The notes beneath the pieces were generated by a model, which saw nothing but the letters and a program-made list of their open reading frames with translations, did no database searches and was not told where the DNA came from. From assembly GCA_947446975.1 (NCBI GenBank), contig CANFHM010000011.1, positions 1 to 46,974 of the forward strand: a stretch of DNA of 46,974 nt, read 5' to 3'. The position numbers and the translations under genes are program-made. Shown piece after piece: positions 4,197-46,011 of this stretch. Numbering within the stretch: the stretch's first letter is position 1; each line of letters begins with the position of its first letter. Origin of the DNA: Microthrixaceae bacterium. GTDB taxonomy: Bacteria; Actinomycetota; Acidimicrobiia; Acidimicrobiales; Acidimicrobilacustridaceae.

Positions 4197-4202
4197 TAGC
4201 GT
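4197..4202 (+). promoter_or_regulatory. -10 element (TAGCGT), leaderless trpF
   Basis: TAGCGT ends 6 nt before the GTG of trpF, the same spacing as at eight other genes here. No ribosome-binding sequence lies between it and the start codon. Confidence 0.55.
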
Positions 4203-4208
4203 TCTTCC

Positions 4209-4841
4209 GTGTTCATCAAGATCTGCGGGATCACCAACGTCTCCGATGCGCTCCTCGCCGTGGCCATGGGCGCCGAGGTGCTCGGCTTCGTCTTCGCCGA
4301 GTCGAAGCGGCAGGTCACGCCCGAGCAGGCCGGCGAGATCATCCAGCAGCTCCCCTATGACGTGACCGCCGTCGGGGTGTTCCGCAACGAGAACCCCGAC
4401 CACATCCTCGATGTCATCTCGGTGGCCCGGCTCACCGGCGTGCAGCTGCACGGCCAGGAGACCCCTGCCGAGGCGGCCCGGATCCGACGCCGGGCGCCCC
4501 TGCTCGTGCAGGCCTTCTCGGCGAACGACCCCCGACTGGCCCGCGTGGACGAGTACGCCGTCGATGCCGTGCTGCTCGATGCGCCGGTGCCCGGGTCGGG
4601 GGAGACCTTCGACTGGGATCTCGTGGGCTCGCTCCCGCAGCGGCGCCGGGTGATCCTCGCCGGTGGTCTCACGCCCGACAACGTGCGCGATGCGGTGCGG
4701 GCGGTTCGGCCATGGGGGGTGGATGTGGCGAGCGGGGTCGAGTCGGAGCCCGGACGCAAGGACGCCCTGGCGCTGCGCCGGTTCATCGATGAGGCGTCGA
4801 ATGCGCTTTCTGAGTTCTCCATCGACCCGGAGCGGGCCTAG
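4209..4841 (+). CDS. trpF: Phosphoribosylanthranilate isomerase
   Basis: TrpF isomerises N-(5'-phosphoribosyl)anthranilate to the carboxyphenylamino-deoxyribulose phosphate used by TrpC. The 210-residue length is normal for the single-domain TIM barrel. The N-terminus FIKICGITN carries the catalytic Cys; [11 protein letters not shown], the catalytic Asp region in [27 protein letters not shown] and VDVASGVE follow in family order. The start is GTG with a -10 hexamer 6 nt upstream, so the mRNA is probably leaderless. It is separated from trpC by the YcnI/sigma island and lies 65 bp before trpB. A TAGCCT overlapping its stop codon may give trpB an additional promoter. Confidence 0.95.
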
Positions 4842-4906
4842 CCTTCCGACACCCACCCGGGCATCGACCCCCCCCGTCGCTGTTCCAGTCGCAGAGAGGC
4901 ATCACC

Positions 4907-6064
4907 ATGGCATTGGCCGAGCCGTCATCCTCAGGTCGTTTCGGAGAGTTCGGGGGCCGCTACGTCCCCGAGACCCTCGTGCCGGCCTGCCTCGAGCTCG
5001 AGCGCGCCTTCCGCAGTGCATGGGGTGACCCCGTGTTCCGCGCCGAACTCGACGGCCTGCTCGCCGACTACGCCGGCCGTCCCTCGCCGCTCACCGAATG
5101 CCACCGACTCTCCGAGGAACTCGGGGTCCGGGTGCTGCTGAAGCGTGAGGATCTGAACCACACCGGCAGCCACAAGATCAACAACGTGCTGGGTCAGGCG
5201 CTCCTCGCCAAGCGGATGGGCAAGACCCGTCTCGTGGCCGAGACCGGTGCCGGTCAGCACGGCGTGGCATCGGCCACCGCAGCGGCGCTCATGGGCATGG
5301 AATGCATGGTCTACATGGGCGAGATCGACATCGAGCGCCAGGCGCTCAACGTCTTCCGCATGAAGCTGCTCGGCGCCGAGGTGGTGCCGGCGGTCTCCGG
5401 GAGCCGCACCCTCAAGGACGCCGTCAACGAGGCCATGCGCGACTGGGTGGCCACTGTCGAGACCACCCACTACTGCCTCGGCTCGGTGATGGGACCGCAT
5501 CCGTATCCGTGGATGGTGCGTGAGTTCCACACCGTCATCGGTGTCGAGGCCCGGGCCCAGTGCGAGAAGCTGCTCGACGGCGGCGTGCCCGACATCGTCA
5601 CCGCCTGCGTCGGCGGTGGTTCGAACGCCATCGGGATCTTCTCCGGCTTCGCCGACACCGACGCCGAACTGGTCGGGGTCGAGCCGGCCGGCGGCGCAGC
5701 GGTCGGCCGTGGTGTGCCCGGTGTGGTGCACGGCATGAAGAGCTATCTCATGCAGGACGAGTTCGGACAGGTGCAGGAGGCCCATTCCATCTCCGCCGGT
5801 CTCGACTATCCGGGCGTCGGACCGGAGCATTCGTTCCTCTCCTCGATCGGTCGGGCCCGCTACGAGGCCGTCACCGACGCCGAGGTCATCGACGCCTTCC
5901 AGCTGCTCAGCCGCACCGAGGGCATCATCCCCGCCCTCGAACCCGCCCATGCGCTGGCCTGGATCAGCCGGGATCGGGCGGCGCTCGCCGGGAAGACCGT
6001 GCTGCTGAACATGTCGGGTCGCGGCGACAAGGATGTCGGTCAGATGATGGAGATCCTGGGCTGA
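4907..6064 (+). CDS. trpB: Tryptophan synthase beta chain
   Basis: A 385-residue PLP enzyme joining indole and serine to give tryptophan; it forms an alpha2beta2 complex with TrpA. The N-terminus [15 protein letters not shown], the Schiff-base lysine in [10 protein letters not shown] (Lys90), [10 protein letters not shown], the PLP phosphate loop GGGSNAIG and [10 protein letters not shown] near the end are all present, and the length matches the family. The start ATG follows a GAGAGG ribosome site. The stop TGA shares one base with the trpA ATG, so translation is coupled. No attenuator-like leader peptide rich in Trp codons is visible upstream. Confidence 0.97.
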
Positions 6065-6894
6065 TGGTCACTGCTGCTGAGGAGGGGCTCACCATCCCCG
6101 AGGCACCGGCTGAGCCCGGTGTTCTGGAGTCCGCGCTGCGAGCAGCGCGGGCATCGGGTCGGAAGCTGCTGGTCCCCTATGTCACCGGCGGTCTCGGCGA
6201 CGACTGGGCCGACATCGTCCGGGCCGTCGCCGATGCCGGCGCCGACGCCATCGAGATCGGCGTACCGTTCTCCGATCCGGTCATGGACGGGCCCGTGATC
6301 CAGGAGGCCAGCGAGCTCGCCCTCCGGGCCGGCGCCACGCCGGTCACGGTGTTCGACGAACTTCGCACCATCGACGCTGGTGTCCCGATCGCCGTGATGA
6401 CCTATTACAACCTGGCCTTCCATATGGGTCACCAGCGTTTCGCCGAGTCGCTCGCCGCCGCCGGTGTGAGCGCCGCCATCCTGCCCGATCTCCCGCTCGA
6501 GGAGGTCGGCCCCTGGGCCACCGCCGCGGATGCGGCAGGGGTCGAGACCGTGCTGCTCGCCGCACCCACCGCCCCCGATGAGCGGCTCCCTCTCGTCTGC
6601 GCCCGGGCCCGTGGCTTCGTGTACGCCGTCGGACTGCTCGGGGTCACCGGGGAGCGCGACGCCCTCGCCTCCTCCTCGCTCGTCATCGCCCGCCGCCTGA
6701 AGGCGATCACCGACAAGCCGGTGCTGGTCGGGGTCGGTGTGTCCAACGCCGAGCAGGCCGTCGAGGTGTGTGCCGAGGCCGACGGTGTGGTCATCGGCTC
6801 GGCGCTGATGCGTCGGGTGCTCGAGGGTGTGGGGCCGGCCGGCGCCGGTGCCTTCATCGCCGAGGTCCGCGCCGCGCTCGACGCCGCATCCTGA
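6064..6894 (+). CDS. trpA: Tryptophan synthase alpha chain
   Basis: A 276-residue TIM barrel that splits indole-3-glycerol phosphate into indole and glyceraldehyde 3-phosphate and channels indole to TrpB. Catalytic Glu64 and Asp75 lie in IEIGVPFSDPVMDGP with the family's 11-residue spacing. MTYYNLAFHMG, LPDLPLEE, VYAVGLLGVTGER and VGVGVSNAEQ follow in order. The N-terminus has roughly 15 more residues than the enteric enzyme. Both ends overlap neighbours: TGATG with trpB, and ATGA with the downstream haemoglobin gene, giving a tightly coupled trpB-trpA-glbO unit. Confidence 0.96.
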   Translation: MVTAAEEGLTIPEAPAEPGVLESALRAARASGRKLLVPYVTGGLGDDWADIVRAVADAGADAIEIGVPFSDPVMDGPVIQEASELALRAGATPVTVFDELRTIDAGVPIAVMTYYNLAFHMGHQRFAESLAAAGVSAAILPDLPLEEVGPWATAADAAGVETVLLAAPTAPDERLPLVCARARGFVYAVGLLGVTGERDALASSSLVIARRLKAITDKPVLVGVGVSNAEQAVEVCAEADGVVIGSALMRRVLEGVGPAGAGAFIAEVRAALDAAS

Positions 6895-7334
6895 TGACCG
6901 AGGCGCAGCAGCCCCTGTTCGACCGGGTCGATGGGGTGGCGTTCTTCGAGCGCGTCGTCGATGCCTTCTATGAGGGGGTGATGACCGATCCCGTGCTCGC
7001 CCCCCTCTACGAGGTCGAGGATCTCGACGGTGCCCGCCATCGCCTCACGCTCTTCCTCGTGCAGTACTGGGGCGGGCCGAGCACCTACAACGATGAGCGC
7101 GGTCACCCTCGGCTGCGCATGCGTCATTCCCCCTACCGCATCAGCACCCTCGAACGGGACCGCTGGCTGGTCCACATGAACGCCGCCGTCGACGCCGAGC
7201 AGCATGCGGGTCGCCTCGAGGCCGCCGATCATGCGGCGATGCGCGCCTACTTCGTCACAGCTGCGGATCACATGATCAACAGCGGGGGACTGGCGATGCG
7301 GGGCGACGGCACGAGCTCGCATCTCGAACCCTGA
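6894..7334 (+). CDS. glbO: Truncated haemoglobin, group II (GlbO type)
   Basis: A 146-residue 2-on-2 globin. FFERVVDAFYEGVMTDPVLAPLY, the YWGGPSTYNDERGHPRL segment (CD-E region) and RMRHSPYRI with the proximal His are typical of actinobacterial trHbO; WLVHM contains the conserved G8 Trp. Group II globins bind O2 and are linked to oxygen or peroxide chemistry. The start ATG overlaps the trpA stop (ATGA), so the gene is translated with the tryptophan genes. Why a globin travels with trpA is not explained by the sequence. A 190-bp non-coding gap follows. Confidence 0.9.
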   Translation: MTEAQQPLFDRVDGVAFFERVVDAFYEGVMTDPVLAPLYEVEDLDGARHRLTLFLVQYWGGPSTYNDERGHPRLRMRHSPYRISTLERDRWLVHMNAAVDAEQHAGRLEAADHAAMRAYFVTAADHMINSGGLAMRGDGTSSHLEP

Positions 7335-7423
7335 GGGCGGCAGTTCCATCGACCCGGATGCATAGGTATGCCGCATTCGGGTCCATCCACCAACCTCGCG
7401 CCGGATGCCGCGAAGCTAGGGCA

Positions 7424-7441
7424 TCGGGCGGTTCCGCCCGA
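7424..7441. repeat. 8-bp inverted repeat in the hup leader
   Basis: TCGGGCGG and CCGCCCGA flank a 2-nt centre (TT). It sits in the 190-bp gap before the HU gene, just after a possible -10 (TAGGGC, about 7417). It could be an operator at the start site or a hairpin at the 5' end of the mRNA. The rest of the gap shows only the AGGAGG ribosome site close to the HU start. Confidence 0.4.
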
Positions 7442-7524
7442 GTTCGTCACGAGAACCCCGGGGATCTCGGGGAAGATCCCAGCCAGGGTCGCCAGATGCC
7501 CGCCAGGGCCAACAGGAGGATGTC

Positions 7525-7809: not shown

Positions 7810-7830
7810 TCCAGCTCCCAGACGTCTGGA

Positions 7831-7857
7831 CGGAGGGGCGCCCGGTGCGCCCCTCCG
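7831..7857 (+). terminator. Hairpin terminator after hup
   Basis: An 11-bp perfect GC stem (CGGAGGGGCGC paired with GCGCCCCTCCG) around a 5-nt loop lies about 20 nt after the HU stop. It has no T-tract, which is common in high-GC actinomycetes. Confidence 0.6.
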
Positions 7858-7892
7858 CCGCGTCCGGGTGCCGCCGGCGTTCGGTCGGCCGC

Positions 7893-7898
7893 TAGCGT
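7893..7898 (+). promoter_or_regulatory. -10 element (TAGCGT), leaderless bcp
   Basis: TAGCGT ends exactly 6 nt before the ATG of the peroxiredoxin gene; there is no room for a ribosome site. Confidence 0.55.
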
Positions 7899-7904
7899 TC
7901 GGGC

Positions 7905-8377
<473 letters not shown>

Positions 8378-14004: not shown

Positions 14005-14010
14005 TACACT
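14005..14010 (+). promoter_or_regulatory. -10 element (TACACT), leaderless coiled-coil gene
   Basis: TACACT ends 6 nt before the GTG at 14017, the spacing seen at other leaderless genes here. Confidence 0.5.
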
Positions 14011-18558: not shown

Positions 18559-19935
18559 TTGTCCGACCAGATCACCACCGACGCGGCTGACGCCGCAACC
18601 CCCGCCGAAGCCGCTCCCGAGACCAACGGCATGGGCAGCTTCGACTCCGAGGGCCGCTACATCCCTCGTCAGATCATCGAGAACGATCTCGGTGCCGAGT
18701 CGCTCGACGAGGCGTACACGACCTCGATGGTGCAGGTGGAGGACGGTCAGATCGTCGAGGGGACGATCGTCAAGGTCGATCACGACGAGGTGCTCCTCGA
18801 CATCGGCTACAAGTCCGAGGGTGTCATCCCGGCCCGCGAACTCTCGATCCGCAACGACGTCGATCCCTCCGAGATCGTCTCGCTCGGTGAGCGCATCGAG
18901 GCCCTCGTCCTCACCAAGGAGGACAAGGAGGGTCGTCTCGTCCTGTCCAAGAAGCGCGCCCAGTACGAGCGGGCCTGGGGCACGATCGAGAAGATCAAGG
19001 AAGAAGAGGGTGTCGTCAGCGGCCCGGTCATCGAGGTCGTCAAGGGCGGCCTCATCGTCGACATCGGCCTCCGCGGCTTCCTTCCCGCCTCGCTCGTCGA
19101 ACTGCGTCGTGTCCGTGACCTCGCCCCCTACGTGGGCCGCACCGTCGACGCCAAGATCATTGAGCTCGACAAGAACCGCAACAACGTCGTCCTCTCCCGT
19201 CGGGCATGGCTCGAGGAGACCCAGAAGGAACAGCGCGACGACTTCCTCACGAACCTCAAGCCCGGCGAGGTCCGCCGTGGTGTGGTGTCGTCGGTGGTCA
19301 ACTTCGGCGCCTTCGTCGACCTCGGCGGCATGGACGGCCTCGTGCACGTGTCCGAGCTGTCCTGGAAGCACGTCGACCATCCCGGCTCCGTCGTCGCCGT
19401 CGGCGATGAGATCGAGGTGCAGGTCCTCGAGGTCGATCTCGACCGCGAGCGCATCAGCCTCTCGCTGAAGGCCACCCAGCAGGATCCGTGGCAGCAGTTC
19501 GCCTCGGCCCATCAGGTCGGCGAGCTCGTCTACGGCCGGGTCACCAAGCTGGTGCCGTTCGGTTCGTTCGTCCAGGTCGGCGACGGCATCGAGGGCCTCG
19601 TGCACATCTCCGAGATGTCCGCCCACCATGTCGATCTGCCCGAGCAGGTCGTCACCCCGGGCGAGGAGCTGTGGGTCAAGATCATCGACCTCGACCTCCA
19701 GCGTCGTCGCATCAGCCTCTCGATCAAGCAGGCCGCCGAGGGTGGCATCGTGGCCGCCGAGTACCAGGAGCACTTCGGCGAGCACGCCTACGACGATCAG
19801 GGCAACTACATCGGTGGCGCCGAGTCCACCGAGGCCCAGCAGGCATGGGCGGAGTACTACGCCGAGCACGGCGATGAGGGCATGGTCCCCGCTGGTGACG
19901 ACGCCGTCGCCGACGAGGCTCCCGCCGCCGAGTGA
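18559..19935 (+). CDS. rpsA: 30S ribosomal protein S1
   Basis: About 458 residues with four S1 (OB-fold) RNA-binding domains, as in actinobacterial S1: GQIVEGTIVKVDHDEVLLDIG, VVSGPVIEVVKGGLIVDIGL, RRGVVSSVVNFGAFVDLGG and GELVYGRVTKLVPFGSFVQVG. The Glu/Ala-rich tail is disordered. It brings mRNA to the 30S subunit. The start codon is TTG. The TTG at 18559 is preceded by AAGAGAG at good spacing; an in-frame TTG at 18517 would add 14 residues and has no clear ribosome site. A long perfect hairpin follows the stop. Confidence 0.93.
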   Translation: MSDQITTDAADAATPAEAAPETNGMGSFDSEGRYIPRQIIENDLGAESLDEAYTTSMVQVEDGQIVEGTIVKVDHDEVLLDIGYKSEGVIPARELSIRNDVDPSEIVSLGERIEALVLTKEDKEGRLVLSKKRAQYERAWGTIEKIKEEEGVVSGPVIEVVKGGLIVDIGLRGFLPASLVELRRVRDLAPYVGRTVDAKIIELDKNRNNVVLSRRAWLEETQKEQRDDFLTNLKPGEVRRGVVSSVVNFGAFVDLGGMDGLVHVSELSWKHVDHPGSVVAVGDEIEVQVLEVDLDRERISLSLKATQQDPWQQFASAHQVGELVYGRVTKLVPFGSFVQVGDGIEGLVHISEMSAHHVDLPEQVVTPGEELWVKIIDLDLQRRRISLSIKQAAEGGIVAAEYQEHFGEHAYDDQGNYIGGAESTEAQQAWAEYYAEHGDEGMVPAGDDAVADEAPAAE

Positions 19936-20299: not shown

Positions 20300-20305
20300 T
20301 ACATT
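20300..20305 (+). promoter_or_regulatory. -10 element (TACATT), probable leaderless coaE
   Basis: TACATT ends 8 nt before the ATG at 20314. An in-frame GTG at 20308 lies too close to it to be the start. Confidence 0.45.
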
Positions 20306-20955: not shown

Positions 20956-22359
20956 CTACAGCGAGAGTCGGCGAGCGAGGTCGCTGGTGATACGACGATG
21001 CGGATCGACGCGCTCCCGGACCGCGCGCCATTCGTCCAGGCTCGGGTACATCTGCGGCACGAGTTCGGCCCGCACCCGCGAGTCCTTCGCGAGGTAGATA
21101 CGTCCGCCGGCCTCGACCACCATGTCGTCGAGTCGATCGAGCAGGGGAGCCAGACCGGGGACGCCGGTGGGGATGTCGAGGGCGAGGGTCCAACCCGGCG
21201 CGGGGAACGACAACGGCGAGGCGTTGTTCGGACCGAAGGCCTTGAGCACGGCGAGGAATGACGTGCATCCCGCAGCGCTGAGTTCCTCGATGATGCGCCG
21301 CAGCGTGGCTTCGGTGCCGAAGGGGATCACGAACTGCCACTGGAGGAATCCGCCGGGCCCGTAGATCCGGTTCCAGCCCCCGACCATGTCGAGCGGATGG
21401 AAGAAGGTGGGGATGGTCTGCAGTTCGTCGCGACGCAGCTTCGGCGCCTTGCGGAACCAGAGTTCGTTGAAGGCTCGCACGGTGAGCTTGTTGAGCAGGC
21501 CGCCCGGGACGAACGGCGGTGCCGAGGCGATCACGCCGGCCCGGTACTCGAAGGGATCGGTGCCGGCGGAGGCATCGAGCTCCTCGGCGGTGGCGAACCG
21601 GCCCCGGGTGAGCACGGAACGACCCATCGAGGCACCGGTGGCCATCAGATCGATCCAGGCCACGGAGTAGTCGTAGTCGGCATCTCCCGTGGCCATGAGT
21701 TCGACGACCGTGTCGAGATCAGGCGCCCGGTCGGTGTCGACGAGGAGTCGACTGGAACCGATGCGCGGGCAGCGGAACGTGGCGTCGAGGATCACGCCGG
21801 TGAGGCCCATGCCACCGGCGGTGGCCCAGAACAGTTCGGGGTCCTGCGTCGGACCGATCTCGACGACCGACCCATCGGCGAGTTGCAGATGGAGCGACTC
21901 GACGTGATCGCACCACGAGCCCTTGCGGTGGTGGTTCTTGCCGTGGATGTCGGCGGCGATGGCCCCGCCGACCGTGACATAGCGAGTGCCCGGCGTGACC
22001 GGCACGAAGAGTCCCTGTGGCACGAGTGAATGCAGCAGTCGGTCGATGCTGACCCCGGATTCGGCGGTGACGAGCACATGATCGGAGTCGGGGGCGGCAG
22101 GATGCACCGTGAACGCGTCGACGTCGATGGTCTCGATGACCCGACCGCCACTGTTCTGTGCGGCGTCGCCGTAGCTCCGGCCGAGACCGCGGGCCAGGAG
22201 ACCACGGGGGTTCGACCCGGGCAGCGACCGTCGGAGTTCGACGGCCGAGGTGGGGCGCCGGACATCGGCCGCCGTGGGGGCGGTGCGTCCCCAGCCGAAG
22301 AGTTCGGTGGAACGGGGGTGCGCCAGTTCGGCGGCCGGTTCAGGCGGTGTAGATGGCAA
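20956..22359 (-). CDS. dprE1: Decaprenylphosphoryl-beta-D-ribose 2'-oxidase (DprE1-like)
   Basis: About 467 residues, an FAD-linked oxidase of the VAO fold. With DprE2 it epimerises decaprenyl-phosphoryl-ribose to the arabinose donor for cell-wall arabinan. The match to mycobacterial DprE1 is extensive: ELFGWGRTAPT, ARGLGRSYGDAAQN, VPVTPGTRYVTVGGAIAADI, HGKNHH (FAD-linked His region), FWATAGGMGLTG, FFHPLDMVGGWNRIYGP, QWQFVIP and YLAKDSR. The cysteine attacked by benzothiazinones in mycobacteria is Ala here (GWTLALD). The start is probably the TTG at 22359 overlapping the ubiA end by 20 nt; a CTG at 22326 is the alternative. Confidence 0.88.
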   Translation of the reverse strand: MPSTPPEPAAELAHPRSTELFGWGRTAPTAADVRRPTSAVELRRSLPGSNPRGLLARGLGRSYGDAAQNSGGRVIETIDVDAFTVHPAAPDSDHVLVTAESGVSIDRLLHSLVPQGLFVPVTPGTRYVTVGGAIAADIHGKNHHRKGSWCDHVESLHLQLADGSVVEIGPTQDPELFWATAGGMGLTGVILDATFRCPRIGSSRLLVDTDRAPDLDTVVELMATGDADYDYSVAWIDLMATGASMGRSVLTRGRFATAEELDASAGTDPFEYRAGVIASAPPFVPGGLLNKLTVRAFNELWFRKAPKLRRDELQTIPTFFHPLDMVGGWNRIYGPGGFLQWQFVIPFGTEATLRRIIEELSAAGCTSFLAVLKAFGPNNASPLSFPAPGWTLALDIPTGVPGLAPLLDRLDDMVVEAGGRIYLAKDSRVRAELVPQMYPSLDEWRAVRERVDPHRRITSDLARRLSL

Positions 22360-23260
22360 AGCCGTAGATGAGGATCCAGGCAGCACCGGCGATGAGCAGG
22401 GTGCGATCGGACAGGACGAGGTTCTCCGGCTCAGCGCCCTTGCCCTGATCGAGCAGGAGCGCGTAGCGCAGGATGGCGATGGCGAAGGGCACGATGGAGA
22501 GCTGGAACAGCACGTTGTTGCCACCATGCAGATCGGCCGATGAGAAGGCCCACAGGCAGTAGGTGATGAGCGCGCCACCGGAGAACACGGCTCGCAGATA
22601 TGTGAGGAACGCCGGCGTGTAGAGGGCCAGCACCGGCCGCACCTCCGCCGCCTGCTCACCGAGATCGGACTGCTCGCCCTGTCGTTTGCCGGTCACCATG
22701 AAGAGCGCACCGAAGCTGGTGACGATGAAGAACCACTCCGAGATCGGCACGCTGGTGGCGGTGGCTCCACCGATGGCCCGGAGCACGAAACCGGCAGCCA
22801 CCGACATGATGTCGAGCACCGCCATGTGCTTGAGCCAGAGGGTGTAGCAGGTGGTGAGCGCCAGGTAGGCGAGGATCGTGAACCCGAAATCGCGTTCGAT
22901 GAGGAAGGCCCCGCAGACTCCGCCGACGAGCAGGAGGATCGAGAGCACGATGGCGAACGGGACGGGCACGATGCCGGCGGCGATCGGTCGTTCGCATTTG
23001 GTCGGGTGCCGGCGGTCGGACTCCACATCGGAGATGTCGTTGATGAGATAGGTGGCACTCGCGGCGGCGCAGAAGCACAGGAAGGCGCCGATGGCATGGA
23101 ACAGTTCGACCCGTTCATCGATGACTCCAGCCGCCGCCGGCGCGGCGAACACGAGGACGTTCTTCATCCACTGCTTGGGTCGCAGTTCGCGCACCACCCC
23201 GCCGAGGAATGATCCCCGGGGTGCCGCGGCCGGCACGGACGAGGGCATCGGGTCAGCCAC
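22340..23260 (-). CDS. ubiA: Decaprenyl-phosphate phosphoribosyltransferase (UbiA family)
   Basis: A 306-residue integral membrane prenyltransferase. In the DprE pathway the homologue Rv3806c transfers phosphoribose from PRPP to decaprenyl phosphate. The Asp-rich motif N74-D75-x2-D78-x3-D82 (NDISDVESD) followed by RRHPTKCERPIA is characteristic of this branch, and LRPKQWMKNVLVFAAP is its usual N-terminus. Seven to nine hydrophobic helices follow, with SVPISEWFFIVTSFGALFMV and GKRQGE typical of the second motif region. It overlaps dprE2 by 8 nt and dprE1 by 20 nt, giving a compact three-gene pathway. Confidence 0.88.
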   Translation of the reverse strand: MADPMPSSVPAAAPRGSFLGGVVRELRPKQWMKNVLVFAAPAAAGVIDERVELFHAIGAFLCFCAAASATYLINDISDVESDRRHPTKCERPIAAGIVPVPFAIVLSILLLVGGVCGAFLIERDFGFTILAYLALTTCYTLWLKHMAVLDIMSVAAGFVLRAIGGATATSVPISEWFFIVTSFGALFMVTGKRQGEQSDLGEQAAEVRPVLALYTPAFLTYLRAVFSGGALITYCLWAFSSADLHGGNNVLFQLSIVPFAIAILRYALLLDQGKGAEPENLVLSDRTLLIAGAAWILIYGFAIYTA

Positions 23261-24008
23261 CGAGACGACGCCAGATCATGCGCGGCGCATGGATGAGACC
23301 GGCGAACACGAATCGCAGGATCGACGGGGCGAAGATGAGTTCCCGGCCCTTGGCCAGACCGTCGACCACGACCTCGGCGACCTTGTCGGGGGTGGTGGAG
23401 AACGGGGCCGGCTTCATGCCGTCGGTCATCTTCGTGTGGACGAATCCCGGTCGGACGACCACTACCCGGACGCCGGAACCCACGAGGGCGTCGCCGAGGC
23501 CCTGAGAGAAGAGATCCTGACCGGCCTTGGTGGCCCCGTACACGAAATTGTCGGCACGGCCGCGCATGGCGGCGATGGAGGTGATCATGAGCAGGGTGCC
23601 GTGACCCTGGCGACGCATGAGGTCGGCCACGATGAGACCCGAGGTGACCGCACCGCCGAAGTTGGCGTTGACGGCCTGCAGGGCGAACAGCGGGTCGGCG
23701 TCGAACTCGGCCTGTGAGCCCAGCATGCCGAAGGCGGAGATGACGAGGTCGATGTCGCCGTCGGCGAACGCAGCCGTGAGCACACCGGCGTGGGTCTCGG
23801 GCTGCAGGGCATCGAAGGCGATGGCCGAGGCGGAGACTCCGGCGGCGGTGAGGCGCTCGATCGTGGATGCCGCGCTCGACGGCTCCCGCACCGCCAGCAG
23901 GACGCGACGCGTACGACCCTCGATCAGGCGGTCCACGATGGCGAGGGCGATCTCGGAGTTCCCTCCGAGCACCAGCACCGATTGCATCGCTCCCAACGCG
24001 TCTCGCAT
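23253..24008 (-). CDS. dprE2: Decaprenylphosphoryl-D-2-keto-erythropentose reductase (DprE2-like)
   Basis: A 251-residue short-chain dehydrogenase that reduces the DprE1 product to decaprenyl-phosphoryl-arabinose. The nucleotide motif is LVLGGNSEIALAI, in the GGxSEI form typical of DprE2, and the catalytic region is MITSIAAMRGRADNFVYGATKAG. VRVVVVRPGFVHTKMT and KGRELIFAP also match, as does the C-terminus (HAPRMIWRRLGG). The ATG at 24008 has an AAGGG site and aligns with the mycobacterial N-terminus; ATG 23987 is less good. It is the first gene of dprE2-ubiA-dprE1. TAACCT on the minus strand (24082-24077) is a possible promoter, followed at once by hairpin CTTGCC-GAGC-GGCAAG (24063-24078). 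Confidence 0.87.
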   Translation of the reverse strand: MRDALGAMQSVLVLGGNSEIALAIVDRLIEGRTRRVLLAVREPSSAASTIERLTAAGVSASAIAFDALQPETHAGVLTAAFADGDIDLVISAFGMLGSQAEFDADPLFALQAVNANFGGAVTSGLIVADLMRRQGHGTLLMITSIAAMRGRADNFVYGATKAGQDLFSQGLGDALVGSGVRVVVVRPGFVHTKMTDGMKPAPFSTTPDKVAEVVVDGLAKGRELIFAPSILRFVFAGLIHAPRMIWRRLGG

Positions 24009-24099: not shown

Positions 24100-24105
24100 T
24101 AGACT
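24100..24105 (+). promoter_or_regulatory. -10 element (TAGACT), leaderless uvrB
   Basis: TAGACT ends 6 nt before the uvrB ATG. No LexA-type operator is visible in the 103-bp gap to dprE2. Confidence 0.5.
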
Positions 24106-26170: not shown

Positions 26171-26176
26171 TAGGGT
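26171..26176 (+). promoter_or_regulatory. -10 element (TAGGGT), leaderless uvrA
   Basis: TAGGGT ends 7 nt before the GTG at 26184. An upstream in-frame GTG at 26175 overlaps the hexamer itself, so it is unlikely to be the start. Confidence 0.5.
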
Positions 26177-30404: not shown

Positions 30405-30410
30405 TACGAT
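30405..30410 (+). promoter_or_regulatory. -10 element (TACGAT), leaderless uvrC
   Basis: TACGAT ends 6 nt before the uvrC ATG at 30417. The rest of the 213-bp nadA-uvrC gap holds a possible divergent -10 (TACACT) and short GC hairpins but no gene. Confidence 0.5.
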
Positions 30411-33064: not shown

Positions 33065-33631
33065 TCAGGGGCGTCGGCCCATGAAGTCGAGCAGCCTGAC
33101 GTCGAGCGGTGCATCCTCATGCTCGCCGCTCGGTCCCTCGCCGAACTGGCCCACCTGACCGATGAACGGTCGCATGGGCTGCACGCTCTCCCACACGAGG
33201 GCCACGAGGTCGTCATCGAGTGTTTCGTCGATGCCTGCACCGCGGGCGAGATCCCAGGCGTGCACGACGTTGTCGCCGATGCGGAAGCCGAGCAGCTGCG
33301 CCACGGGCATGTCCATCGCCGGATGGGCGACCATGCGTTCGAGAGCGCCCGGTTCGGCGAACGCGGCGGCCAGATCATCGGCGGCGCGGCTGAACTGGGC
33401 GACGACGTCCTCGTCGAGTGCGGTCGTCGCGAGCATGTCGATCGCCTGCTCACGTGACGCTCCGCGGATGAGTGCCGCCGACATCGTGGCGCCGGAGATC
33501 GAGTGGCGGATGACCTCGGCGACATCCCAACCCTCACAGGGGGAGGGGTCGTGCATCGCGGTCGGCGGGACGATCCGGAGCTTCGATTCGAAGAGGTCGG
33601 CGGAACGGGCGAGGGCTTCGAGCTGGTCCAT
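33065..33631 (-). CDS. MDMPI-like (TIGR03086-type, DinB-fold) protein
   Basis: A 188-residue four-helix-bundle protein of the mycothiol-dependent maleylpyruvate isomerase N-terminal family. Family motifs seen: HDPSPCEGWDVAEVIRHSI, with the first metal-ligand His in the VIRHS helix, and GDNVVHAWDLARGAGI with a second His. Such proteins bind a divalent metal and often use thiol cofactors; the reaction of this one is unknown. An mshC-like gene at 42840 shows mycothiol is probably made. ATG start with TAGAGT ending 6 nt upstream, so leaderless. Confidence 0.78.
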   Translation of the reverse strand: MDQLEALARSADLFESKLRIVPPTAMHDPSPCEGWDVAEVIRHSISGATMSAALIRGASREQAIDMLATTALDEDVVAQFSRAADDLAAAFAEPGALERMVAHPAMDMPVAQLLGFRIGDNVVHAWDLARGAGIDETLDDDLVALVWESVQPMRPFIGQVGQFGEGPSGEHEDAPLDVRLLDFMGRRP

Positions 33632-33637
33632 GTCCGG

Positions 33638-33643
33638 ACTCTA
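33638..33643 (-). promoter_or_regulatory. -10 element (TAGAGT), leaderless MDMPI-like gene
   Basis: TAGAGT on the minus strand ends 6 nt before the ATG at 33631. It lies 34 bp from the divergent rapZ -10. Confidence 0.5.
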
Positions 33644-33677: not shown

Positions 33678-33683
33678 TAGCGT
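33678..33683 (+). promoter_or_regulatory. -10 element (TAGCGT), leaderless rapZ
   Basis: TAGCGT ends 6 nt before the rapZ GTG, identical in sequence and spacing to the trpF and bcp elements. Confidence 0.55.
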
Positions 33684-34574: not shown

Positions 34575-34580
34575 TAAGGT
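34575..34580 (+). promoter_or_regulatory. -10 element (TAAGGT) for gap-pgk-tpiA
   Basis: TAAGGT lies 42 nt before the gap ATG, leaving a leader of about 35 nt that carries AGGAGG. Confidence 0.45.
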
Positions 34581-37534: not shown

Positions 37535-37540
37535 TACATT
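37535..37540 (+). promoter_or_regulatory. -10 element (TACATT), leaderless secG
   Basis: TACATT begins right after the tpiA stop and ends 6 nt before the secG GTG. Confidence 0.5.
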
Positions 37541-37781: not shown

Positions 37782-38618
37782 ATGGCGGTCAGCGCCGTCC
37801 GACCGGTCCCGGGCGCACCGGCGCTGGAACTGCGCGATGTCGGCCTCATCCGCGACGGTCGACCCATCCTCTCGCATGTCGACTGGACCGTCGACGCCGG
37901 CCAGCGCTGGGTCGTGCTCGGACGCAACGGCTGCGGCAAGTCCTCGCTCGTGCGCATCGGGTCGCTCTACCTCCACCCGAGCATCGGATCGGTCCGTCTG
38001 CTCGGCCATGCACTCGGTCGCGTCGATGTGCGATCACTGCGACGCCTCGTCGGCGTCGCCAGCACAGGCATGGCCGACATGCTCCGCTCCGATCTCACGC
38101 CGATCGATGTCGTGATGACCGCCAAGAACGCGGCCCTCGAACCCTGGTGGCACACCTACGACGACGCTGATCGCGCCCGCGCCGCTGACTGCCTCGATCG
38201 GATGGGCGTCGGGGCGTTCGCCGATCGCAGCTTCGTCTCGATGTCATCGGGCGAGCGTCAACGGGTGCTGCTGGCCCGCACACTCATGCCGAGCCCGGGC
38301 ATCGTGTTCCTCGACGAACCTACCGCCGGACTCGACCTCGCCGGCCGCGAGGATCTCGTCGGTGCCCTGGGCGATCTCGCCGGCGATCCCGGCTCCCCGG
38401 CCACGGTGCTGGTCACCCACCATGTGGAGGAGATCCCCGCCGGGTTCACCCATGTCCTGCTCATCGCCGATGGTGGGGTGCAGCGCGCCGGTCCGATCGA
38501 GGAGGTGCTCACCGCGGACGAGCTCTCCCGCTGCTTCGGGACCGCCCTCGAACTCGAGCACCGACATGGTCGATGGTGGGCCTGGGCGAGCCGCGGCGGC
38601 GACGCCCCCCGACAGTAG
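37782..38618 (+). CDS. ABC transporter ATP-binding protein (orphan)
   Basis: A 278-residue ATPase subunit. Walker A GRNGCGKSS, signature MSSGERQRVLLART, Walker B IVFLDEPTAGLDL and switch His in VTHHVEEIPAGF are intact. The sequence resembles the stand-alone YlmA/ModF-like ATPases. No permease or binding-protein gene is nearby, so its partner and substrate are unknown; it may act alone. Its TAG stop is also the first half of the TAGGCT element before the next gene. Confidence 0.85.
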   Translation: MAVSAVRPVPGAPALELRDVGLIRDGRPILSHVDWTVDAGQRWVVLGRNGCGKSSLVRIGSLYLHPSIGSVRLLGHALGRVDVRSLRRLVGVASTGMADMLRSDLTPIDVVMTAKNAALEPWWHTYDDADRARAADCLDRMGVGAFADRSFVSMSSGERQRVLLARTLMPSPGIVFLDEPTAGLDLAGREDLVGALGDLAGDPGSPATVLVTHHVEEIPAGFTHVLLIADGGVQRAGPIEEVLTADELSRCFGTALELEHRHGRWWAWASRGGDAPRQ

Positions 38619-38627: not shown

Positions 38628-39983
38628 ATCGGCACCACGCTCGGACTCGTCGTCGTCCTCCTGCTCATCCTCGCCAACGGCTTCTTCGTGGCGGCGGAGT
38701 TCGCGCTCGTCGCCGTCGACCCGAACCGTGTCGAGTTCGCCGCCTCGGAGGGTGGACGCCGCGCCCGGGTGGCACGGGGACTCCTCGGCCGGCTCTCGTT
38801 CCATCTCTCGGGAGCCCAGCTCGGCATCACCGTCACCTCGCTGCTGGTCGGCATCGTGGCCGAGCCGGCGATCGCCCATCTGCTGGAACCGGCGCTCGAG
38901 CCGCTCGTCGGCGCCGCGGCCACCACCGGGGTCTCGCTCGCAGCGGCCATCTTCATCGCCACGATCGTCCAGATGATCGTGGGCGAGCTCGTCCCGAAGG
39001 GACTGGCGATCGCCCGTCCCGAGACCACCACGTTCCTCCTTGCCCCGGTCATCCGGGTCTACGGCATCGTGTTCGGACCCCTCATCCATCTGCTCGACAG
39101 TGCGGCGAACGCCGCCGTGCGTCTCGTGGGGATCGAACCCACCGAGGAGCTGTCCCGGGTGCGCACCCTTCCCGAGCTGCAGGCGCTGGTCGAGGCCTCT
39201 GCCGAGGGGGGCACGCTCGACATCTCGGCGAGTCGGCTGCTCACCCGCACGATCCGATTCGATCGGAAGGTCGCCGAGGATGTCCTCATCCCCCGCACGG
39301 CGGTGGTGGCCATCGAGCAGGACGCATCGGTGGAGGCGCTGGTGCAGCTCGCGCTGCGCACGGGCCACTCGAGATTCATCGTGCACGGTGAGGATCTCGA
39401 CGAGCTGATCGGTGTGGTCGAGATCCGTCGGGTCCATCAGGTGCCTGCTCCCGAGCGGGCCACCACTGCGGTGAGCACTCTCGTGCAGGAGGTGCTCATG
39501 GTGCCCGAGAGTCGGGCGCTCGACGAGCTGCTGATCGATCTCCGCCGCAGCGGGACGCAGCTCGCCGTGGTGGTCGACGAGTACGGCGGCACGGCCGGGA
39601 TCGTCACCCTGGAGGACATCCTCGAGGAGATCGTCGGCGAGATCGCCGATGAGCACGACACCGAGGCCCAGGTGTCCAGCCGGGCGATCCGAGCGGGGGA
39701 GTGGATGCTGCTCGGCACACTCCATCCCGATGAGGTCGCCGATGCCACCTCGCTGGAGCTGCCCGAGGGCGAGTACGAGACCCTCGCCGGGTTCATGCTC
39801 GACCGGCTCGGACACATCCCGGGCACGGGCGAGATCGTGGAGTTCGAGGGGTGGAGACTGCGGGTGTCGGCCATGGATCGCCGGCGGATCGCCATGGTGC
39901 TGGTGCAGTCGCCCACCTTCGAGGCATCTCCCGACGCTGCTGATCGGGCCCGCAGCCTGCCGGGTCGCCGGAGTGAGCCATGA
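38628..39983 (+). CDS. CNNM/CBS/CorC membrane protein (HlyC/CorC family), apparent ATC start
   Basis: About 451 residues if translation begins at ATC 38628. The N-terminal DUF21/CNNM membrane domain has several helices, beginning LGLVVVLLLILANGFFVAAE. Two CBS domains follow at about residues 220-340, with VVVDEYGGTAGIVTLEDILEE, then a C-terminal CorC/HlyC domain (WMLLGTLHPDEVADATSLEL). Relatives take part in Mg/Co efflux or ion balance. The frame is closed by TAG at 38616 and has no ATG, GTG or TTG until GTG 38688, which would delete the conserved first helix. The neighbouring paralogue has the same helix behind a normal ATG. It overlaps that paralogue by 4 nt. Confidence 0.85.
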   Translation: MGTTLGLVVVLLLILANGFFVAAEFALVAVDPNRVEFAASEGGRRARVARGLLGRLSFHLSGAQLGITVTSLLVGIVAEPAIAHLLEPALEPLVGAAATTGVSLAAAIFIATIVQMIVGELVPKGLAIARPETTTFLLAPVIRVYGIVFGPLIHLLDSAANAAVRLVGIEPTEELSRVRTLPELQALVEASAEGGTLDISASRLLTRTIRFDRKVAEDVLIPRTAVVAIEQDASVEALVQLALRTGHSRFIVHGEDLDELIGVVEIRRVHQVPAPERATTAVSTLVQEVLMVPESRALDELLIDLRRSGTQLAVVVDEYGGTAGIVTLEDILEEIVGEIADEHDTEAQVSSRAIRAGEWMLLGTLHPDEVADATSLELPEGEYETLAGFMLDRLGHIPGTGEIVEFEGWRLRVSAMDRRRIAMVLVQSPTFEASPDAADRARSLPGRRSEP

Positions 39984-41116: not shown

Positions 41117-41884
41117 TCAGGCGCCGGTGGCGTGGTACCCGCCGTCGACGTGGATGACCTCGCCGGTGGTCTGCGGGAACCAGTCCGACAGCAGGGCGAC
41201 ACAGGCACGGGCCACACCCGGGGCATCGCGCACATCCCAGCCGAGCGGCGCCCGTTCGTCCCAGACATCCTCGAACTTCGAGAATCCGGGGATCGACCGG
41301 GCGGCGATGGTCTTGATCGGCCCCGCCGCCACGAGGTTGACCCGGATCTGCTGCGGACCGAGGTAGCGGGCGAGGTAGCGCGAGGTGGATTCGAAGGCTG
41401 ACTTCGCCACACCCATCCAGTCGTAGGAGGGCCAGGAGACGGTGTTGTCGAAGTCGAGGCCGACGATCGAGCCGCCCCGGGGCATGAGCGGCGCAACGAC
41501 ATCGGCGAGTGCCTTCAGCGAGTAGGCGGAGATGTTCATCGCCACCGAGACGTCATCCCAGGTGGCCTCCATGAAGGTGCCGCCGAGGCAGACCGGCGGA
41601 GCGAATCCGATGGCATGGAGGGCGCCGTCGAGCGTGCCCCAACGGCTCCCGAGTTCGGTGCGGAGCGCGTCGACATGGCTGGGATCGGACACATCGAACT
41701 CGAGGACCACCGGTTCCGTCGGAAGTTTCCGGGCGCTCTTCTGGGTGTGCTTCATGCCGTTGCCGGCACCGGTGAGGATGATCTCGGCGCCCTCCTGCTG
41801 GGCCAGCGCGGCGACACCGAAGCCGATCGAGGACTCGGTGAGCACCCCGGTGATGAGCAGTCGCTTTCCTTCGAGCAGTCCCAT
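41117..41884 (-). CDS. fabI: Enoyl-ACP reductase (NADH), InhA/FabI type
   Basis: A 255-residue atypical SDR completing each fatty-acid elongation cycle. LLITGVLTESSIGFGVA is the FabI nucleotide-binding motif, and Tyr and Lys of the Y-x6-K site lie in SYDWMGVAKSAFES. VNLVAAGPIKTIAARSI and the C-terminal GEVIHVDGGYHATG are family features. Similarity is close to mycobacterial InhA, but the residue matching InhA Ser94 is Ala91 (LHAIGFAPP). The ATG follows GGAGG; TAACGT (41914-41909, minus) is a likely -10. It lies apart from the main fab operon. Confidence 0.94.
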   Translation of the reverse strand: MGLLEGKRLLITGVLTESSIGFGVAALAQQEGAEIILTGAGNGMKHTQKSARKLPTEPVVLEFDVSDPSHVDALRTELGSRWGTLDGALHAIGFAPPVCLGGTFMEATWDDVSVAMNISAYSLKALADVVAPLMPRGGSIVGLDFDNTVSWPSYDWMGVAKSAFESTSRYLARYLGPQQIRVNLVAAGPIKTIAARSIPGFSKFEDVWDERAPLGWDVRDAPGVARACVALLSDWFPQTTGEVIHVDGGYHATGA

Positions 41885-42064: not shown

Positions 42065-42071
42065 CTCGGCC

Positions 42072-42734: not shown

Positions 42735-42761
42735 GTGTCCGTGGATGCCGGTGCGCACCGG

Positions 42762-42767
42762 TAGCCT
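42762..42767 (+). promoter_or_regulatory. -10 element (TAGCCT) ahead of mshC
   Basis: TAGCCT lies 28 nt before a 15-codon mini-ORF and 72 nt before mshC. Confidence 0.4.
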
Positions 42768-42795
42768 TCGAGGGTTCTGAGCCCGGGGATCTTCG

Positions 42796-42843
42796 ATGAC
42801 TGACAACCACCTGTTCGTGCAGACCGCTGGAGTGACGCCATGA
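42796..42843 (+). CDS. Possible 15-residue leader peptide coupled to mshC
   Basis: ATG at 42796 opens a 15-codon frame ([15 protein letters not shown]) whose TGA overlaps the mshC ATG (ATGATG). The mshC ribosome site (GGAG) lies inside it. There is no run of regulatory codons such as Cys. It may couple translation or simply be chance; expression is unproven. Confidence 0.3.
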   Translation: MTDNHLFVQTAGVTP

Positions 42844-43991
42844 TGCGTCTCTACGACACCGCCCGGCGGGAGATCATCCCGTTCGAGCCCGGCCCCGTCG
42901 TCACGATGTACACGTGCGGCATCACCCCCTACGACGCCACCCACCTCGGGCACGCCGCCACCTATGTCACCTACGACGTGCTCCAGCGACGCCTCCGCGA
43001 TCTCGGTCACGAGACCAGATGCGTCCGCAACGTCACCGACGTCGATGACGACCTGCTGCGCAAGGCCCGTGAACTGGGCGTCCACTACCTCGACCTCGCC
43101 GCCGCCGAGACCGCCCGGTTCGATGCCGACATGGTGGCGCTCAACGTCGTCGAATGCTGGAGCGAGCCCCGCGCCACCTCCGCCATCGCCGACATCCGGG
43201 GCTTCATCGGGATGGTGCTCGATCGCGGCCATGCCTACGTGAGCGGCGGGTCGGTCTACTTCGACGTCAGCACCGTCGACACCTTCGGTCAGATCTCCCA
43301 CTACTCCCGCGACGAGATGATCGAACTCGCCCGCCAGCATGGTGGGAACCCCGACGATCCCAACAAGCGTGACCCTCTCGACTTCGTGCTCTGGCAGCCC
43401 TCCGCCCCTGATGAGCCGGCGTGGGAGTCGCTCTGGGGTCCGGGTCGCCCCGGTTGGCATATCGAATGCTCGGCGCTGGCGCTGCGGGAGCTCGACACCA
43501 CGATCGATCTGCACGGCGGCGGCTCTGATCTCATCTTCCCGCATCACGAGTGCGAGGCGGCCCAGAGCGAGGCCGCCACCGGTGTGCCGTTCGTCCGGCA
43601 CTGGATGCATCAGGCGATGGTCCGCATGGACGGCGAGAAGATGTCGAAGTCGTTGGGCAATCTCGTGTTCATCAGTGAACTCCGCAGGACCTACGACACC
43701 CGGGCCATCCGCCTCGGCATCGTCGTCCATCACTATCGCGACTCATGGTCCTGGAACGACGACATCATGCCGGTCGCCGCTGCTCGGCTCGACGCCTGGC
43801 TCGCCACCTCCTCGGATCCCGCCACTCCCGACAGTGACGATGCACTCGAGCAGGTCCGGGCCCGACTCGACGACGATCTCGACACCCCCGGTGCCGTCGC
43901 CGCCATCGATGCCGCTGTCGCCCGTGGCGAGAGCGTGGTGCGGGCCGCGGCGCTGCTCGGCGTCTTCCTCGTGGGCGAACCCACCGTCTGA
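42840..43991 (+). CDS. mshC: Cysteine:glucosaminyl-inositol ligase (MshC-like)
   Basis: A 383-residue relative of cysteinyl-tRNA synthetase. MshC joins cysteine to GlcN-Ins in mycothiol synthesis. Diagnostic for MshC over CysRS are [20 protein letters not shown] (CGITPYDA rather than CGPTVYD) and the short length with no anticodon-binding domain. [10 protein letters not shown], the zinc region with [14 protein letters not shown] and [11 protein letters not shown], and KMSKSLGN are intact. Known MshC proteins are about 410 residues. ATG at 42840 has GGAG upstream; ATG 42843 is also possible. A true CysRS is unlikely but cannot be excluded by eye. Confidence 0.83.
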
Positions 43992-44018
43992 GTCCGGCGG
44001 CGCCGGCCACCGGCGAAG

Positions 44019-44028
44019 CCTCCGGAGG
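44019..44028. repeat. Palindrome CCTCCGGAGG between mshC and thrS
   Basis: A perfect 10-bp palindrome inside a longer pairing of GTCCG (43992-43996) with CGGAC (44033-44037). The 67-bp gap may fold into a structure ending the mshC transcript. Confidence 0.35.
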
Positions 44029-44044
44029 GCCTCGGACCCTCAAG

Positions 44045-44050
44045 TAACCT
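44045..44050 (+). promoter_or_regulatory. -10 element (TAACCT), probable leaderless thrS
   Basis: TAACCT ends 8 nt before the thrS ATG. A leader this short leaves no space for a T-box. Confidence 0.45.
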
Positions 44051-44058
44051 GCGTCCCC

Positions 44059-46011
44059 ATGTCCTCGCAGATCACGATCACGCTCCCCGACGGTTCCGAA
44101 CGTCAACTCGACGAAGGCGCCACGGTCGGCGATCTCGCCGCGTCGATCGGTGCACGTCTCGCGAAGGCTGCGGTCATCGGATCGGTCAACGGCGTCGAGC
44201 GGGATCTCGTCTGGCCCCTCGCCGACGGCGATGTCGTCTCCATCATCACCGAGACCGACGATCGCGGTCTCTACACGATCCGTCACTCCACGGCCCATGT
44301 GCTCGCCCAGGCCGTGCTCGATCTCTTCCCGGGCGCCACCTTCGCCATCGGACCTCCCGTCGAGAACGGCTTCTACTACGACTTCGAACTGCCTGACCGG
44401 GGCACCTTCACCCCGGACGATCTGGAGCGGATCGACACGCGCATGCGCGAGATCATCAAGGAGCAGCAGCCGTTCATCCGCGACGAGATCGCTGAAGCGG
44501 TCGCACTCGAACTGTTCCGCGACCACAAGTACAAGTGCGAGATCATCCGCGGCGCCGCCGAGGATCCGATGTCGGCCACCGAGACCGGTCTGGTGCGCAC
44601 CTACGAGAACCCGCCGCGGTTCATCGACCTCTGTCGTGGCCCGCATGTCCCCGACACCGGCCGTCTCGGTCACTTCAAGCTCATGCGCGTGGCCGGCGCC
44701 TACTGGCGCGGCGACGAGAAGAACCCGATGCTGCAGCGGATCTACGGCACGGCGTGGGCATCGAAGAAGGAACTCGAGGCGTATCTCACCCGGCTGGAGG
44801 AGGCCGAGAAGCGCGACCATCGCAAGCTCGGCGTCGAACTCGATCTCTTCTCGTTCCCCGAGGAGATCGGTTCGGGTCTGGCCGTGTTCCATCCCAAGGG
44901 CGGCATCATCCGGCGCATCATGGAGGACTACTCGCGAACCCGCCATGAGCAGGCCGGTTACGAGTTCGTCTACTCGCCGCACATCACCAAGTCGAACCTG
45001 TTCGAGAAGAGTGGCCATCTCGACTGGTACGCCGACGGCATGTACCCGCCGATGGAGCTCGACGGCGGCACCGAGTACTACCTCAAGCCGATGAACTGTC
45101 CGTTCCACATCCTGATCTTCGGATCGGGCCAGCGGTCCTATCGCGAACTCCCGCTGCGACTCTTCGAGTTCGGCACCGTGTACCGCTACGAGAAGTCCGG
45201 CGTGGTCCAGGGTCTCACCCGGGCCCGCGGTTTCGCCCAGGACGACGCCCATATCTTCTGCACCCGGGAACAGGCGCCGGCCGAACTCGCCCGGGCCCTG
45301 GACTTCGTGCTCGATCTGCTGCGCGATTACGGCCTCGACGACTTCTACGTCGAGCTCTCGACCAAACCGGAGACCAAGGCGGTCGGCACCGATGAGGAAT
45401 GGGAGGAGGCCATCGAGGTCCTCCGCACCGTGGCCCTCGACAAGGGCATGCAGCTGGTGATGGACGAGGGTGGTGGCGCGTTCTACGGCCCCAAGATCTC
45501 CGTGCAGGCCCGTGACGCCATCGGGCGCACCTGGCAGATGTCCACCATCCAGCTCGACTTCCAGCTGCCGCAGCGGTTCGACCTGAGTTACGTCGGGGCC
45601 GACAACGAACGTCATCGTCCGGTGATGATCCATCGGGCGCTGTTCGGCTCGGTCGAGCGCTTCTTCGCCGTGCTGCTCGAGCATTACGCCGGTGCCTTCC
45701 CGGCCTGGCTCGCTCCGGTGCAGGTCAGGGTGCTGCCGGTGCGGGGCGATCACGATCAGTTCGCCCGTGATCTCGTCGACCGTCTCAGGGCCGCCGGGTT
45801 CCGCTCGGACATGGTGGTTGCCGATGAGCCCCTCGGCGGTCGGATCCGCAAGGCCAAGATGGAGAAGCTGCCGTATGTGCTCGTGGTCGGCGATGACGAC
45901 GTCGCCAACGACACGGTCGGAGTCAACCCCCGAGGCGGTGATGTCGAGCGCGATGTCGCCGTCGATGCGTTCATCGCCCGGCTCGGCGCCGACGTCGCCG
46001 CCCACGCCTGA
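44059..46011 (+). CDS. thrS: Threonyl-tRNA synthetase
   Basis: A 650-residue class II synthetase. Residues 1-65 are the TGS domain ([22 protein letters not shown]). The editing domain shows [11 protein letters not shown] and YYDFELPD. The catalytic core has zinc ligands in MNCPFHI, QDDAHIF and MIHRALFGS, plus class II motifs [15 protein letters not shown] and RGFAQDD. Residues about 540-650 are the anticodon-binding domain ([21 protein letters not shown]). The ATG at 44059 is the true start; the longer open frame upstream lies within mshC. Confidence 0.97.

Follow-up and report, generated by a model that had tools for sequence, protein, structure and literature searches.

The window analysed here is a stretch of 46,974 nucleotides, contig C11 of the metagenome-assembled genome (MAG) G000 (2.35 Mb, 96 contigs, 88.6% complete), which holds among others the repair genes uvrB, uvrA and uvrC and a gene for a CNNM-type membrane protein, termed CNNM-1 below. 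Thirteen genes of the window carry a hexamer of the form TANNNT a few nucleotides before the start codon. An earlier note on this DNA had taken these hexamers for promoter elements of leaderless mRNAs, and all 13 were located in the sequence at the spacing it had claimed. For the nine cases placed at 6 nt both hexamer and spacing are right, but the "start" of CNNM-1 is ATC 38628, which the earlier note had left unremarked; the other 12 of the 13 genes have ATG or GTG as first codon.

Gene calling relied on codon usage, in a script blind to promoters and Shine-Dalgarno (SD) sites, so that the choice of start is free of bias toward the signal; the genes were named through NCBIfam and Pfam scans. 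The number of nucleotides between the end of TANNNT and the start codon is referred to as the spacer, and genes with a spacer of 6–9 as TA-led. The features are as follows.

4197..4202, + strand: TAGCGT, putative −10 of trpF; spacer 6 to GTG 4209
7893..7898, + strand: TAGCGT, putative −10 of bcp; spacer 6 to ATG 7905
14005..14010, + strand: TACACT, before a coiled-coil-like gene; spacer 6 to GTG 14017, start choice uncertain
20300..20305, + strand: TACATT, putative −10 of coaE; spacer 8 to ATG 20314
24100..24105, + strand: TAGACT, putative −10 of uvrB; spacer 6 to ATG 24112, layout widely kept in the phylum
26171..26176, + strand: TAGGGT, putative −10 of uvrA; spacer 7 to GTG 26184
30405..30410, + strand: TACGAT, putative −10 of uvrC; spacer 6 to ATG 30417
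33638..33643, − strand: TAGAGT, putative −10 of the MDMPI_N gene 33065–33631; spacer 6 to ATG
33678..33683, + strand: TAGCGT, putative −10 of rapZ; spacer 6 to GTG 33690, divergent from the MDMPI_N promoter
37535..37540, + strand: TACATT, putative −10 of secG; spacer 6 to GTG 37547, adjoins the tpi stop codon
38616..38621, + strand: TAGGCT, before CNNM-1; spacer 6 to ATC 38628, its TAG being the stop of the ABC gene 37782–38618
38628..39983, + strand: CNNM-1, CNNM/CBS/CorC_HlyC membrane protein gene with a predicted AUC start codon
42059..42064, + strand: TACGGT, putative −10 of npdG; spacer 7 to GTG 42072
44045..44050, + strand: TAACCT, putative −10 of thrS; spacer 8 to ATG 44059
34575..34580, + strand: TAAGGT, ahead of the gap gene; contrast case with an AGGAGG SD before ATG 34623

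For uvrA, coaE and the coiled-coil gene the spacing requires a start other than one that the caller also chose. TANNNT is rare in the window (38 on both strands), and the pattern TANNNT-N6-RTG occurs at 8 sites, where shuffles predict 4.2 and reach 8 in 6 of 100 runs. By itself this count is weak, and what matters is the placement at gene starts: all 8 sites fall on starts called with a larger training set and 7 of the 8 on starts called from the window alone, the exception being the coiled-coil gene. In the contrast case TAAGGT ends 42 nt before the ATG, which leaves a leader of about 36 nt containing the AGGAGG SD. SD-like sequences also precede hup, acpP and fabI (the FabI-like gene is 41117–41884, minus strand), in line with the earlier note; nadA, which it had listed with them, was not identified in the window by NCBIfam/Pfam naming. 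One further likely leaderless start, absent from the earlier list, is the window-end gene on the + strand, where TACGGT (from 46537) stands 7 nt before ATG 46550.

Spacing of the hexamer within the genome

The own-genome test set is composed of two disjoint samples and the window, together 847 kb of the 2.35 Mb (36%) with 763 genes (sample loci L003–L022 and L133–L152). In sample 1 plus the window (447 kb, upstream sequence being available for 391 genes) spacers of 6, 7, 8 and 9 are found at 35, 17, 11 and 5 genes, against 0.8–1.0 per position in dinucleotide shuffles. Sample 2 (400 kb, 374 genes), for which the other spacers serve as control, the shuffles belonging to sample 1 only, yields 32, 16, 13 and 7, with 0–3 cases at each remaining spacer between 0 and 20. 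Taken together, 67, 34, 24 and 12 starts show spacers of 6, 7, 8 and 9, i.e. 137 of the 763 genes (~18%) are TA-led, while spacers 0–5 add up to 4 cases. The genome-wide peak at 6–8 nt, whose absence the earlier note had named as a refutation, thus appears in both samples of this 36% of the genome. Its proposal that the spacing could be used to predict start sites also holds: out of 100 TANNNT-N6-RTG sites in the 847 kb, 67 lie at called starts and another 19 at in-frame alternative starts within 30 codons (86 of 100), whereas the same predictor with a spacer of 4 hits called or alternative starts in 0 of 11 cases.

SD sites, scored as an SD 4-mer at −18 to −5 from the start, are nearly excluded from these genes, with 4 cases among the 137 TA-led genes versus 261 among the 626 others (Fisher P=1e-22). 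The SD 4-mers themselves are real in this genome, being present before 265 of 763 starts versus 84 of 763 in the stretch 40 nt further upstream. The base preceding the start in the genes with a spacer of 6 (n=67) is C in 42, G in 19, T in 6 and A in none, the figure for A in SD genes being 28/264. TA-led genes are also found more often at the head of transcription units. The TA-led share is 63/218 (29%) behind an oppositely oriented neighbour and 16/250 (6%) behind a same-strand neighbour at 20 nt or less, with 26/107 at 21–60 nt and 27/160 at more than 60 nt. The statement that operon-internal genes have ribosome sites can be kept in part: of the same-strand genes at 20 nt or less behind the preceding gene 103/250 have an SD 4-mer, but 132/250 have neither signal.

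In 9 of the 137 TA-led genes the stop codon (TAG or TAA) of the preceding gene doubles as the TA of the hexamer. Of 13 TAG or TAA stops located 9–12 nt ahead of a start, 9 form part of a TANNNT, versus 7 of 32 at 0–8 or 13–60 nt (P=0.005); they look as if kept as −10 boxes.

Other taxa and the conservation of the uvrB layout

The closest uvrB relatives among named records come mostly from acidimicrobial or unnamed actinobacterial MAGs, some of them titled Acidimicrobiales, Acidimicrobiaceae or Ilumatobacteraceae. The taxonomic placing depends on these relatives, the MAG containing no 16S rRNA gene. The term acidimicrobial-like is our own grouping (L023–L029 and L031–L033) and takes in MAGs titled only Actinomycetota or Actinomycetes. 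The contig of L023, which heads the list of these relatives, is titled Bifidobacterium breve; its UvrB is 87% identical to that of the window, and the title is probably wrong. Spacer histograms by group were built from 57 of 80 loci, those of unclear group or on short contigs being excluded. The nine acidimicrobial-like loci (133 genes) show 13 cases at a spacer of 6 and 8 at 7, and 18 Actinomycetes loci (263 genes) 21 and 6, respectively. No spacing peak is seen in 25 Clostridia/Bacilli loci (377 genes). The distribution is in agreement with Zheng et al. 2011 (PMC3160421).

Concerning single genes, we scored a layout consisting of an in-frame ATG or GTG with TANNNT at a spacer of 6–9 near the gene start, the search running from −25 to +10 codons for the uvrB and uvrA loci and for a lenient test of other called genes. 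For uvrB this layout is present in 9/10 acidimicrobial-like and 17/18 Actinomycetes loci, i.e. 26/28 actinobacterial loci, and in 1/18 Clostridia/Bacilli loci (18 of the 25 were counted). Internal RTG codons, taken as control, give 1/770 in the actinobacterial loci and 26/408 in Clostridia/Bacilli, where TANNNT is commoner. For uvrA the layout is found in 8/8 acidimicrobial-like loci placed, 4/6 Actinomycetes and 2/12 Clostridia/Bacilli. A phylum panel of 60 genomes with GC from 0.28 to 0.74 (the 30 loci with the highest scores in each family, among them that of the own genome for uvrB and uvrC; search from −30, or −50 for thrS, to +10 codons) shows it in 25 of 30 loci for uvrB, 12 for uvrA, 13 for uvrC, 6 for thrS and 1 for gap, the internal controls being 3/736, 4/570, 9/702, 13/605 and 8/543, respectively. 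The lenient test of other called genes yields 37/247 in Actinomycetes (uvrB excluded) and 164/710 in the own-genome samples; against these rates uvrB stands out, as does uvrA, though chiefly in the acidimicrobial-like group.

A shared −35 element before the uvr genes was considered and rejected, no conserved −35 being present in 68 aligned promoters. No DNA-damage promoter box was seen before uvrB by eye, and a thin literature search returned no paper on a conserved leaderless uvrB layout. If uvrB is leaderless across much of the phylum, the question arises whether repair genes gain from translation that is independent of the SD.

Leaderless genes of the TA-led kind have been described in Actinobacteria by Zheng et al. 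2011 (PMC3160421), Cortes et al. 2013 (PMC3898074) and Shell et al. 2015 (PMC4633059). The earlier note's remark that leaderless mRNAs are known in actinomycetes agrees with the first two, and mapped transcription start sites of Mycobacterium tuberculosis display the same TANNNT, leaderless starts and no −35 consensus (PMC3898074). The genes described here share with those a TANNNT whose first T lies about 12 bp ahead of the start, the lack of an SD, a high-GC host and the use of both ATG and GTG; they differ in that the host is an uncultured acidimicrobial-type MAG and that one member has ATC. No word beginning with Acidimicrob occurs in the available part of the text of PMC3160421. Hence, the trait is of a kind known for Actinomycetota, extended to an uncultured clade, for which the spacing provides a start-codon predictor. 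A −10 region adjacent to open reading frames has also been reported for Deinococcus-Thermus (PMC12340547), the same promoter-next-to-gene layout in a different phylum.

The leaderless interpretation

The peak at spacers 6–9, replicated in two samples, the near absence of SD sites, the position at the head of transcription units, the accuracy of the predictor, the taxonomic distribution and the widely kept uvrB layout all support the leaderless interpretation, as do the mapped starts of M. tuberculosis. The hexamers would be −10 elements of the housekeeping (SigA-type) promoter, from which transcription would begin on the first base of the start codon or 1–3 nt before it; the mRNAs would thereby be without leader and SD, and the ribosome would start on the 5'-terminal codon. 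Leaderless initiation from such boxes is well supported as a widespread mode, and we hold it to be very likely that they set transcription at, or 1–3 nt before, the start codon and that leaderless mRNAs account for the ~18% of TA-led genes. These genes would more often stand first in their transcription units, the remainder being SD-led or left unassigned.

Several points weigh against this interpretation. No −35 consensus is visible in the 68 aligned promoters, so that the boxes are identified as promoters by the −10 and its spacing. Neither TANNNT nor SD precedes 365 of the 763 genes, and the gene starts come from a simple in-house caller. The layout is absent from most of the phylum panel for uvrA, uvrC and thrS, and in 5 of the 25 TA-led uvrB loci of that panel one or another candidate start is preceded by an SD 4-mer as well. 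Five Chloroflexota loci (62 genes), too few to judge, show 4 cases at a spacer of 6 and 4 at 11. Finally, the actual 5' ends and translation without a leader are what we infer from the pattern.

An alternative that retains the promoters is that boxes with spacers of 7–9 are −10 elements whose mRNAs keep a leader of 1–3 nt. Such spacers make up 70 of the 137 TA-led genes; on the other hand the distance between −10 and start site varies in mapped promoters, where the motif is centred 7–12 bp upstream (PMC3898074), and therefore a spacer of 7–9 does not fix the start site. We regard these short leaders as rather unlikely. An origin of the hexamers in chance, base composition or left-over stop codons can practically be dismissed, being refuted by the shuffles (about 1 per position versus 35 observed at a spacer of 6 in sample 1), by the replication in the second sample and by the accuracy of the predictor, and preceding-gene stops supply the TA in just the 9 of 137 cases mentioned above.

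The start codon of CNNM-1

CNNM-1 matches the CNNM, CBS and CorC_HlyC families; the model of the PaeA polyamine exporter (NF052568) scores 177.3 bits over window positions 38688–39983, under its cut-off of 500 bits. An in-frame TAG (38616–38618) is located 12 nt upstream of ATC 38628, and no ATG, GTG or TTG occurs before GTG 38688. The orthologues were compared in a panel of 52 loci, made up of 30 best loci and 14 further matches at order level (44 in all) and the 8 best new matches from the phylum; paralogues and lower-scoring matches are excluded, and the next 20 phylum loci were inspected for the start codon alone.

Codon 1 in the 52 loci is ATC in 25, ATA in 6, CTC in 1, GTA in 1 and ATG, GTG or TTG in 19. 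The 44 order-level loci contribute ATC 23, ATA 1, CTC 1 and all 19 canonical codons, and the 8 phylum loci ATA 5, ATC 2 and GTA 1 (ATA in L198, L201 and L204, for example), whereas in 19 of the next 20, more distant, phylum loci a canonical start is found at the place or within 3 codons of it, one being unclear. In 14 of the 52 loci no ATG, GTG or TTG is present from the upstream stop to codon 17. The panel thus contains loci with a near-cognate codon where orthologues have ATG, GTG or TTG, and without a usable canonical start. These comparisons make a conserved AUC start of CNNM-1 highly probable.

That ATC 38628 is an ordinary Ile codon and translation starts elsewhere is quite improbable. 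ATC by itself is no sign of a start, accounting for 12317 of 12393 Ile codons in the own-genome sample, GTG 38688 is in frame downstream, and a canonical codon lies adjacent or within 3 codons in no fewer than 4 of the 33 non-canonical rows: GTG one codon later in L124, one codon before in L159 and three codons upstream in L203 and L204. The L124 gene, with ATC as the aligned codon and this GTG overlapping the ABC stop, probably starts at the GTG. In CNNM-1, however, the stop lies just upstream and a start at GTG 38688 would remove the first membrane segment; moreover, the 14 loci above offer no canonical start, and 19 orthologous loci place ATG, GTG or TTG exactly at the codon of ATC 38628. 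ATA, found at codon 1 in 6 loci, represents just 24 of 12393 Ile codons in G000, although by rough counts it has a larger share in the short loci from those relatives that carry it.

A general use of ATC, ATT or CTG starts in this genome was rejected, the samples showing no clear excess. At a spacer of 6 there are 3 ATC versus 1.5 expected, and behind an SD 5-mer 3 ATT versus 1.5 and 29 CTG versus 20.5 (P=0.04), ATC being outside the twelve most enriched codons. Among the three ATC matches at a spacer of 6 that of CNNM-1 is convincing; the one in L018 directly precedes an ATG and the one in L005 lies 72 nt upstream of the called ATG.

The 25 non-canonical order-level rows include 14 with an SD-like 4- or 5-mer ending 5–10 nt upstream, 6 with TANNNT at a spacer of 6 and 5 with neither. 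The six are L103–L106, of this genus, and L157 and L159, from a second genus in the family. The 13 rows of this genus that have ATG or GTG group in a single clade with full support, and each of them shares a 4-nt overlap with the ABC gene upstream; in this clade, canonical codon and ABC overlap go together. In the 6 other canonical rows the ABC gene was not found upstream. The locus L109 lies on WLFD01000009.1 (exact 60-base match at the expected place). In the orthologue L165, TAGACT is followed at a spacer of 7 by TTG, which may be a leaderless start.

Whether the CNNM-1 mRNA itself is leaderless with AUC as first codon is evenly poised, and in this genome the proposal is drawn from the −10 spacing only. 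In its favour, six loci belonging to two genera show a spacer of exactly 6, against a background of ~0.0016 per codon. The other explanation is that CNNM-1 is read from the transcript carrying the ABC gene and that ribosomes ending at TAG 38616–38618 restart on the AUC 9 nt on, which would need no promoter. We consider this somewhat less probable, though a serious contender. In L103, L105 and L106 the ABC gene stops at the TAG of the hexamer, the 4-nt overlap in the 13 congeners indicates that the pair can be coupled, and a leaderless AUC conflicts with the statement of Shell et al. that only ATG and GTG initiate leaderless translation in mycobacteria (PMC4633059). Nevertheless, the ABC gene of L104 stops sooner, at a TGA 15 nt ahead of the start, and a hexamer, TAGGAT, persists at a spacer of 6; L157 and L159 present TAGGCT-N6-ATC, and a stretch of 413 and 435 nt upstream, respectively, showed no ABC gene (L159 with the GTG mentioned above); and stops located 9–12 nt before starts complete TANNNT with the excess described for the genome, as if kept as −10 boxes.

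Non-canonical starts under the control of initiation factor IF3 are known for infC (ATT in Escherichia coli, ATC in Streptomyces) and for Streptomyces sigR (GTC) (PMC5472188). The infC gene of the same relatives has ATA in 24 and ATC in 5 of the 29 loci placed out of 30 (L167–L196, L190 being G000:C3). Judged by eye, an SD-like sequence precedes most of these starts; a TTG stands two codons before in L180 and L194. By analogy with infC and sigR, IF3 start-codon control probably operates in these relatives. CNNM resembles these genes in that AUC or AUA occupies the start position of many relatives, preceded by an SD-like sequence in the 14 order-level loci mentioned; it is unlike them in coding for a CNNM/CorC membrane protein, neither a translation factor nor a sigma factor, and in that the codon is at a leaderless-type position in 6 of the 44 order-level loci. 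The second CNNM gene overlaps CNNM-1 by 4 nt. Tentatively, and with slightly less confidence than for the leaderless mRNA taken alone, we suggest that CNNM-1 may be made from a leaderless AUC mRNA and that the near-cognate codon, which recurs through the order and in other families of the phylum, may keep both CNNM genes under start-codon fidelity control, as in infC and sigR. In Salmonella, bacterial proteins of the CorC/CNNM type cope with an excess of Mg2+ or polyamine (PMC12421838), and it is a matter of speculation that high Mg2+ or polyamine could relax fidelity and raise exporter synthesis, a feedback through the ribosome. If true, the AUC case would contradict the rule by which leaderless translation is confined to AUG and GUG, and a membrane transporter-type gene would join the short list of conserved non-canonical starts; no report of a CNNM gene with such a start turned up in our literature search. 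Gene finders limited to ATG, GTG and TTG miss genes with conserved non-canonical start codons.

Two minor observations concern other genes of the window. The gene for ribosomal protein S1 (18559–19935, + strand) appears to start at TTG, a codon found at the aligned position in L024 and L031 and not in three others. The genes for DprE1, decaprenyl-phosphate phosphoribosyltransferase and DprE2 stand together at 20956–23978 (− strand) in this acidimicrobial-type genome.

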